A DNA stretch of 20,789 nt. Source: a virus. Location of the stretch: positions 1 through 20,789 of the IMG/VR virus record IMGVR_UViG_3300047552_000666; one strand, written 5' to 3'. A model generated the notes under the pieces. It was not told the origin of the DNA. It searched no databases and worked only from the letters and a program-made list of their open reading frames with translations. Numbering within the stretch: position 1 is the stretch's first letter; every line of letters begins with the position of its first letter. The translations under genes and the position numbers were made by a program. This document shows positions 19,176 to 20,789 of the stretch, piece after piece.

Positions 19176-19541
19176 ATGAATACAAATCAAGTGATGTTCA
19201 GAATCGGCAACTCAATAGTAAACGAGCTAGTAGCCCAACTAGACAGAAATGATTCAGTTGATACCGGACTTTTAAAGAATTCTATCAGAATGGAACTTAC
19301 AGATAAGAAAATTACAATCATAATGAACGGCTATGGAAAGAATGTAGAATACGGAACTCCAATAGGAACTAAAGTATCAATCGAAGCATTAAAAGGCTGG
19401 TGTAAAAGAAAACTAGGAGATGAAGATCTAGCGTTCGCAGTAGCAAAAAAAATAGAAGAAGAAGGAATTGAACCAAGACCTTTTATTAGACCCGTACTAC
19501 ACCAAAAATTACCAATGATTATAGCGAGGTCCATAAAATGA
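19176..19541 (+). CDS. HK97 gp10-like neck / tail-completion protein
   Basis: This 121-aa protein has the family landmarks in order: DTGLLKNSI (29-37), a strand pair ending NVEYGT (56-61), and EPRPFIRPVL (99-108) near the C-terminus. This matches the HK97 gp10 group of neck proteins, which join the head connector to the tail. The size is usual. Stop and next start overlap (ATGA at 19538-19541) and the next gene is the tail terminator, the expected order in tailed phages. Confidence 0.82.
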   Translation: MNTNQVMFRIGNSIVNELVAQLDRNDSVDTGLLKNSIRMELTDKKITIIMNGYGKNVEYGTPIGTKVSIEALKGWCKRKLGDEDLAFAVAKKIEEEGIEPRPFIRPVLHQKLPMIIARSIK

Positions 19542-20185
19542 GTTTAGACAACCTTAAATCTGAATTAGTGTACTTAATCAGAAACGCAAACATACTGACA
19601 ATAGCCCAAAGAGGCGTCACAACTACCACAACATCTTTAATCCCAATCGTAAGCGCAACTAGTTACACACTAAATGTAGCCAATGTAAAAAACATAAGAA
19701 CACTGACAGTTGGAGCTACAACATTAAAATATGGTCATGATTACACGGTAGATTTAGACTTTATGGACACAACCAAGAAATGTAAAATAACCTTCAGAAC
19801 AGCAAAAACAGGGGACTTACAAATAACATATGACGCAGGAACAGACAAAATATTTAATGATTATCCAAGAGTAGATTTGAGTATTTCAAGCTATCCAAGA
19901 ATAGGACTTGAAGAAATAAGCAAATCTACACAAAATCTCAGCCTAGGCGGATTAGATTTTATATCAAGCAGAGTTGTAACAATTTTAGTACTAGCAGAAA
20001 ACGCAGATGACATTGAAACTTATATTGCAGCAATAGAGAGTTTAATCAGAACAAACGCAAAGTCTTTATACTACGCAAAATATATCAGTCCAACAGGTAG
20101 AGGTCCTTTAATTAAACACATGGCTAGAAACGATACAATCTTACAAAAGAATGTAGACTTACTAGCAAAATTCGAAGTCGAATAA
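19538..20185 (+). CDS. Tail terminator-like protein with inserted beta domain
   Basis: The 215-aa protein has an N-terminal helix (LDNLKSELVYLIRNANIL), a beta-rich stretch (about 27-105: YTLNVANVKNIRTLTVG, DYTVDLDF, GDLQITYDAG), and a C-terminal alpha/beta part with NDYPRVDLSISSYPRIG (107-123), SSRVVTILVLAENADDIETY and a long helix. The outer parts fit a tail terminator/tube-capping protein that sets tail length and binds the neck. The inner stretch, similar in feel to the GKITF/GDVTVTY domains of phage structural proteins, looks like an insertion. It lies between gp10-like and tail tube genes, as expected. Confidence 0.65.
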   Translation: MSLDNLKSELVYLIRNANILTIAQRGVTTTTTSLIPIVSATSYTLNVANVKNIRTLTVGATTLKYGHDYTVDLDFMDTTKKCKITFRTAKTGDLQITYDAGTDKIFNDYPRVDLSISSYPRIGLEEISKSTQNLSLGGLDFISSRVVTILVLAENADDIETYIAAIESLIRTNAKSLYYAKYISPTGRGPLIKHMARNDTILQKNVDLLAKFEVE

Positions 20186-20197
20186 CTAAATCAAAAT

Positions 20198-20203
20198 GGA
20201 GGT
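20198..20203 (+). promoter_or_regulatory. Shine-Dalgarno site preceding a non-ATG start
   Basis: GGAGGT, identical to the sites at 2502-2507 and 8052-8057. The spacing to ATC 20210 is six bases (five and three bases to ATG in the other two). No ATG, GTG or TTG in the tail-tube frame lies between the upstream in-frame stop (20183-20185) and this point, so this site selects ATC as the most likely start. Confidence 0.7.
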
Positions 20204-20209
20204 ACAAAA

Positions 20210-20789
20210 ATCGCAGACACACAAGTATCAGGCACAGAAGTAGGCGCAGCATTCGCATTTGAGGATCCATCATTCTTTGATTTGCCAGTAGCATCTCACA
20301 CAGCTAGTACAGAAGCTTACACAGCATTTGGTAGAAATGTAGACATCAGTGTCGCAAGAAATCAAAACAAAGAAAGAGTATACTCAGTCGGAGCAAGAAA
20401 CGCAGAAGCAACAGTCACAAAACAATTCAGTGGAACAGTCACCGTTGGAGGAATTTTAAGCAATGCTTATTGGTTATTGGGAGTATTAGGCACAAACACA
20501 AACGGCGGAACAACCGGAGCTTATACACACACATACACAGAAGCAGACAGACAACCAACAATGACTATCAAAAGACAAATAGACTTTGGAACAACTCACG
20601 GAATAGAAGCATTTATTGGCGGAGTAATAAACAGCTGTACAATAACAAGTGCAGTAAACGAACCAGTAAGATTCAGCTTAGAGATTCCATATAGACACGA
20701 ACCAGCAGTTGATGAGTCAACAGCAATCTCGTATGTAGTAGATTCAGAAGAAATCTTCACATTCGCAGGAGCAAGTATTGAAGCACCAT
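20210..20789 (+). CDS. Major tail tube protein (partial, unusual ATC start)
   Basis: The frame is open from after TAA 20183 to the window edge (193 codons from ATC 20210). The sequence starts IADTQVSGTEVGAAFAFED and includes YTAFGRNVDISVARNQ, a VGARNAEATVTKQFSGTVTV stretch, ILSNAYWLLGVLG, MTIKRQIDFG and FIGGVINSCTI, the strand pattern of tube-forming tail proteins. Position right after the tail terminator supports the call. A normal gene would read ATGGCAGAC here; the window reads ATCGCAGAC. Alternatives are ATG 20196 followed by a -1 shift on the A5 run at 20206-20210, or a sequencing error. Protein identity is likely; the start is uncertain; the C-terminus is outside the window. Confidence 0.75.
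   Translation, partial: MADTQVSGTEVGAAFAFEDPSFFDLPVASHTASTEAYTAFGRNVDISVARNQNKERVYSVGARNAEATVTKQFSGTVTVGGILSNAYWLLGVLGTNTNGGTTGAYTHTYTEADRQPTMTIKRQIDFGTTHGIEAFIGGVINSCTITSAVNEPVRFSLEIPYRHEPAVDESTAISYVVDSEEIFTFAGASIEAP

Follow-up and report, generated by a model that had tools for sequence, protein, structure and literature searches.

Recurrent AUC, AUA and AUU start codons in the tail-tube gene of a group of probable archaeal viruses

The tail-tube gene and its start region

The window, that is, the whole stretch of viral DNA analysed here (20,789 nucleotides; IMG/VR record IMGVR_UViG_3300047552_000666), closes with a tail-tube (major tail) protein gene of the PF18906 Phage_tube_2 family (20210..20789, + strand), which is cut by the contig end. 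The genes 5' of the tube gene encode a terminase, a portal protein that carries a fused Mu F-like domain, an SU10-type capsid, and head-tail and neck proteins, and this order is of the tailed-virus type. The initial annotation had named the product a tail tube from the letters alone, and the profile matches agree with it. The fragment present in the window matches phrog_18409 at 2.9e-10, full-length relatives (mostly 321-335 aa) match PF18906 at 6.6e-24 and 1.3e-18 with scores of 85.4 and 68 bits versus the Pfam cut-off of 27, and the tube profile matches PDB 8ed0, "Tail Tube Protein gp93" of P74-26, at 2.3e-6. The truncated copy of the window has no Pfam match when it is searched alone, and no tube relative is found among the INPHARED phages. 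The Phage_tube_2 proteins, gp93 of P74-26 included, thus belong to the same protein family as the product of the window, although, among the tubes that are more distant, those whose start could be read (e.g., L139, L109 and L110) begin with ATG, unlike the window.

Upstream of the tube gene lies a conserved 215-aa gene with an ordinary ATG start (19538..20185, + strand), the stop codon of which (TAA, 20183-20185) is also the in-frame stop 5' of the tube gene. The codons that follow read CTA AAT CAA AAT GGA GGT ACA AAA ATC GCA GAC, exactly as had been claimed, and no ATG, GTG or TTG is present between the stop and the body of the protein; the first such codon in the tube frame is TTG 20282, 24 codons downstream. 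Direct reading of 20198-20212 places the Shine-Dalgarno (SD) sequence GGAGGT (20198..20203, + strand) six nucleotides 5' of ATC (20210..20212, + strand), with the spacer ACAAAA. A 15-codon frame that had been put forward for frameshifting is likewise present (20196..20243, + strand; translation MEVQKSQTHKYQAQK, stop TAG). It is offset from the tube frame, traverses the A5 run at 20206-20210 and is not conserved, and its ATG, which overlaps the SD of the tube gene, is most likely a chance occurrence. An exact-pattern scan of IMG/VR for the start region of the window returned no match. The short motif AA(T/C)TAAAT appears to recur 5-12 nt 5' of the SD in tube and other genes (20183-20197 in the window, and in many relatives).

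Start codons across the tube family

The tube of the nearest relative, L002, is 69% identical to that of the window. Its start region reads AGGAGGTTAAATA-ATG-GCAGAT, compared with GGAGGTACAAAA-ATC-GCAGAC in the window, and the protein alignment (MADNIVSG and (I)ADTQVSG) is gapless. The ATC therefore occupies the exact place of the L002 ATG, which identifies it as the homologous start codon.

Two alignments (A1 and A2) drew on about 75 loci from IMG/VR in addition to one contig of a MAG; after the removal of copies, they yield 56 distinct tube genes with a readable start, the window included. The start codon is ATG in 31 of these genes, ATC in 12, ATA in 8, ATT in 3, TTG in 2 and GTG in none. 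An AUH codon (ATA, ATC or ATT) is thus used by 23 of the 56 genes (41%), namely the window and 22 others. In every AUH gene, no canonical start exists from the upstream in-frame stop to the conserved N-terminus, and GGAGG or a longer SD precedes the start in all 23, as a GGAGG-type SD does at the equivalent place in nearly all 56 genes. The homology with L002 and the recurrence of AUH support the ATC start that the initial annotation had offered as one of two options, and we assign a probability of about 0.9 to AUC 20210-20212 being the start codon of the tail-tube gene, as judged from sequence comparison. That annotation had also proposed that an in-frame ATG in close relatives would speak against ATC. 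Such an ATG is indeed found at the aligned codon in the closest relatives (L002/L003, L013/L104 and L014), but the start codon of this family switches back and forth between ATG and ATH, and an ATG relative therefore does not make the ATC an error.

The N-terminal codons behave as coding sequence. Over codons 2-18 of the AUH tube genes, pN/pS is 0.52 in the tube frame versus 1.3 and 1.85 in the two alternative frames (0.41 in the AUG tube genes), and these codons are under purifying selection in the tube frame. The AUH codon itself does not behave as an ordinary isoleucine codon, since the mixture of ATC, ATA and ATT at the start (12/8/3) is unlike that of internal isoleucine codons (186/328/490, p 4e-5).

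These data bear on three other explanations of the missing ATG. A sequencing or assembly error, in which a true ATG was read as ATC, would fit the ATG of the closest relatives; it is improbable because three different third bases occur over 23 distinct genes from many metagenomes, and some contexts are identical in independent assemblies, although for the present contig taken alone such an error keeps a small probability. Contigs from two or three metagenomes share identical AUH contexts with ATC (L028/L030), ATA (L093/L094/L095) or ATT (L040/L044/L046), which argues against sequencing error as a general explanation. Still less credible is a programmed -1 frameshift on A5 that joins ATG 20196 to the tube frame. 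The window does contain both elements, but the A5 run holds only a P-site A AAA and no canonical slippery heptamer, no separate SD precedes the ATG, and the product would carry five extra residues that are absent from all AUG relatives. This ATG is peculiar to the present contig, whereas the L002 start aligns with ATC, and the 45 nt 5' of the start contain no ATG, whatever the frame, in 18 of the 23 AUH genes. Frameshifting is thereby eliminated as a mechanism for the family as a whole. The slippage proposed in the initial annotation is thus not borne out; both a conserved upstream frame and a slippery site, as expected of a programmed -1 frameshift gene, are wanting. Initiation at TTG 20282, with the preceding codons left untranslated, is just as implausible as the frameshift. 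Although TTG 20282 is the first canonical in-frame start, GGAGGT lies upstream, residues 2-24 of the window can be aligned with the corresponding residues of AUG relatives, purifying selection acts on the N-terminal codons as described above, and many AUH relatives have no canonical start within their first 20 codons.

Several further candidates were rejected. A-to-I editing of ATA was set aside because ATC and ATT are used too, and read-through from the upstream gene is dropped because in-frame stops, which often fall within the spacer, lie 6-30 nt 5' of the AUH codon. A host without aIF1 does not fit, as the Woesearchaeota MAG has SUI1. Virus-encoded tRNAs are absent from 27 of 28 sources, and the remaining one (L108) encodes tRNAs for Pro and Gln alone; the 28 sources thus show neither an initiator tRNA nor an Ile tRNA of viral origin.

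The use of AUH is largely specific to the tube gene. Approximately 11 of 460 other genes of these viruses (about 2%) have AUH starts, and the difference from the tube corresponds to Fisher values of 7e-17 for all other genes and 5e-11 for those with GGAGG, values that disregard the shared ancestry of the genes and use approximate non-tube tallies, in particular for gene families in which the conserved core starts well behind the N-terminus. AUG is kept by other genes that have a GGAGG of equal strength. No AUH start occurs among 49 homologues of the 215-aa gene upstream of the tube, nor in the capsid and several other gene families of these viruses. A small tail-region gene beginning MATIGGKSLG is a second AUH-prone gene, in which 7 of 44 relatives have an ATC or ATA start (L055 near 3216, L067/L098 of FAM7, L090:7040, L097:9118, L101:11793 and L054:4680). 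AUH is also found in 2 of 24 members of one other gene family and in 2 of 49 tape measure genes, the latter two being near-identical copies.

Start-codon switching, SD spacing and tube expression

On a tube tree computed without the first residue, at least 16 changes between AUH and non-AUH are observed, and 11 independent AUH/non-AUH pairs lie on well supported branches. With the spacing counted from the end of GGAGG, all 23 AUH tubes have a spacing of 6-9 nt and 19 of them a spacing of 8-9 nt, whereas the AUG tubes are mostly spaced at 6-7 or 10-12 nt (8-9 nt in 4 of 30). The comparison of AUH with all other tubes at 8-9 nt (19/23 versus 5/32) gives p 1e-6, which, like the other p-values that leave the tree aside, is inflated by relatedness; in a tree-aware comparison, all of the approximately 7 informative independent pairs point in the same direction, with a median p of 0.016. 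The non-tube AUG genes in these genomes are mostly spaced at 5-7 nt, which suggests that 8-9 nt may not be the optimum there. RNA folding around the start is alike in the AUH and AUG classes.

The simplest account of the AUH start would be SD-driven initiation on a third-position mismatch, in which the strong GGAGGT positions the 30S subunit at AUC 20210-20212 and the initiator Met-tRNA forms base pairs at just the first and second codon positions. We infer that Met-tRNAi decodes the AUH start; removal of the initiating methionine would then be usual, given that Ala or Ser mostly occupies residue 2. By matching the strength of the start codon to the SD spacing, the viruses may hold tube production close to a set point, such that AUH with an SD at 8-9 nt and AUG with an SD at 6-7 or 10-12 nt would be interchangeable and would give a similar intermediate rate. 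That the weak AUH codon is retained for its effect on the level of tube synthesis appears about as likely as not. The suggestion of the initial annotation that the start lowers or tunes synthesis is thus plausible and receives indirect backing from the spacing trade-off. A stronger form is put forward more tentatively, namely that AUH is a real expression device on the tube gene of DPANN-associated viruses, in which the start codon is toggled against SD spacing for virion stoichiometry. Such a device would have the aIF1, aIF2 and Met-tRNAi of the host (Nanoarchaeia) read third-position mismatches behind a strong SD, either with a well-defined rate or under certain conditions in the course of infection.

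The main rival to tuning accepts AUC as the start codon, and competes with the tuning part only. It holds that host ribosomes take AUH so easily behind a strong SD that the codon choice is nearly neutral, with drift between AUG and AUH that is without consequence, and it deserves about the same tentative credence as the device. The many switches on the tube tree are consistent with drift, as are the scattered AUH starts among the remaining genes of these viruses and a methionyl-tRNA synthetase gene of one cellular Nanoarchaeia genome that seems to be AUU-started. However, drift would not readily account for the retention of AUG in other genes with an equally strong GGAGG, for the absence of GTG and the rarity of TTG in the tube although both occur elsewhere, for the tie of AUH to a narrow SD spacing, or for the lack of a clear AUH class in about 0.8 Mb of Nanoarchaeia DNA.

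Known AUH starts, probable hosts and neighbouring observations

AUH start codons are textbook rarities of a few bacterial regulators; AUH starts are also known from S. aureus citZ (AUA) and E. coli pcnB (AUU). In S. aureus, AUU and AUA starts yield about 10-30% of AUG output and are accompanied by extended SDs, as in infC (AUA), and the extended SD is strong in ccpN (AUA) and cvfC1 (AUU) (PMC13009471). The infC start is ATT in E. coli and ATC in Streptomyces, and Streptomyces sigR has a GTC start that is repressed by IF3 (PMC5472188). As proposed for the tube, the AUH start of bacterial infC lowers initiation. However, infC encodes IF3, which regulates start-codon fidelity in the cell and is part of a feedback loop, whereas the tube is a virion protein without such a loop, in probable archaeal viruses that switch between AUG and AUH. 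An infC-like autoregulated start was therefore rejected, the product being a tail tube protein and not a fidelity factor. Archaea possess aIF1 and not the bacterial IF3. The genes ccpN, cvfC1, citZ and pcnB have a weak AUH start in common with the tube, but they are bacterial cellular genes, whereas the tube is a virion structural gene with three AUH codons across a virus family. The likeness to sigR would lie in a non-canonical start kept for regulation; the codon class is different, and sigR, unlike the tube, is bacterial and has a known control factor.

To our knowledge, recurrent gene-specific use of AUH in a virion gene has not been described, nor has an expression device of start codon and SD spacing in archaea or virion genes. 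AUH initiation at the tube is notable for its recurrence, its near confinement to one gene, and its occurrence in a virion protein, here of viruses that probably infect archaea. Its presence in 41% of the copies of one abundant structural gene, with many switches, provides a natural experiment on archaeal start-codon strength. In addition, gene callers restricted to ATG, GTG and TTG would truncate or miss major tail proteins of these viruses.

The hosts of these viruses are likely tiny DPANN archaea. Within the named genome collection, the sole match is L070, a viral contig related to the window and binned in a Woesearchaeota MAG; this contig carries viral genes over the stretches read, and the host link is therefore by binning only. 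Distant tubes are present in three further genomes of the same class. Approximately 0.8 Mb of Nanoarchaeia sequence shows no AUH start class of its own, apart from one MetRS gene. The methionyl-tRNA synthetase genes of two Nanoarchaeia genomes (L153:9200-9320, - strand, and L183 near base 522) have no ATG, GTG or TTG; the homologous start, directly after a stop codon, is ATT, or TTT in the second genome (L183). An AUU-started MetRS in Nanoarchaeia is thus possible.

Two observations concern the region 3' of the tail genes and of the tube. In L137:8090-11980 (JAIPIC010000016.1), the viral relative binned with a Woesearchaeota MAG, almost 4 kb of N (masked or a gap) lies 3' of the tail genes. 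The window stops 5' of a candidate G/GT frameshift region that is seen in relatives, where a small gene lies directly 3' of the tube and the next frame, which overlaps the small gene, has no usable start (L002:7029-7376 and the frame after it). In most of 49 relatives, a long A-run (AAAAAAA) stands at the opening of the overlapping frame; the pair is represented by FAM3/FAM5 (e.g., L070:11403-11631). By their arrangement, these frames resemble the typical G/GT programmed frameshift of tail chaperones, in this case in viruses that probably infect archaea.
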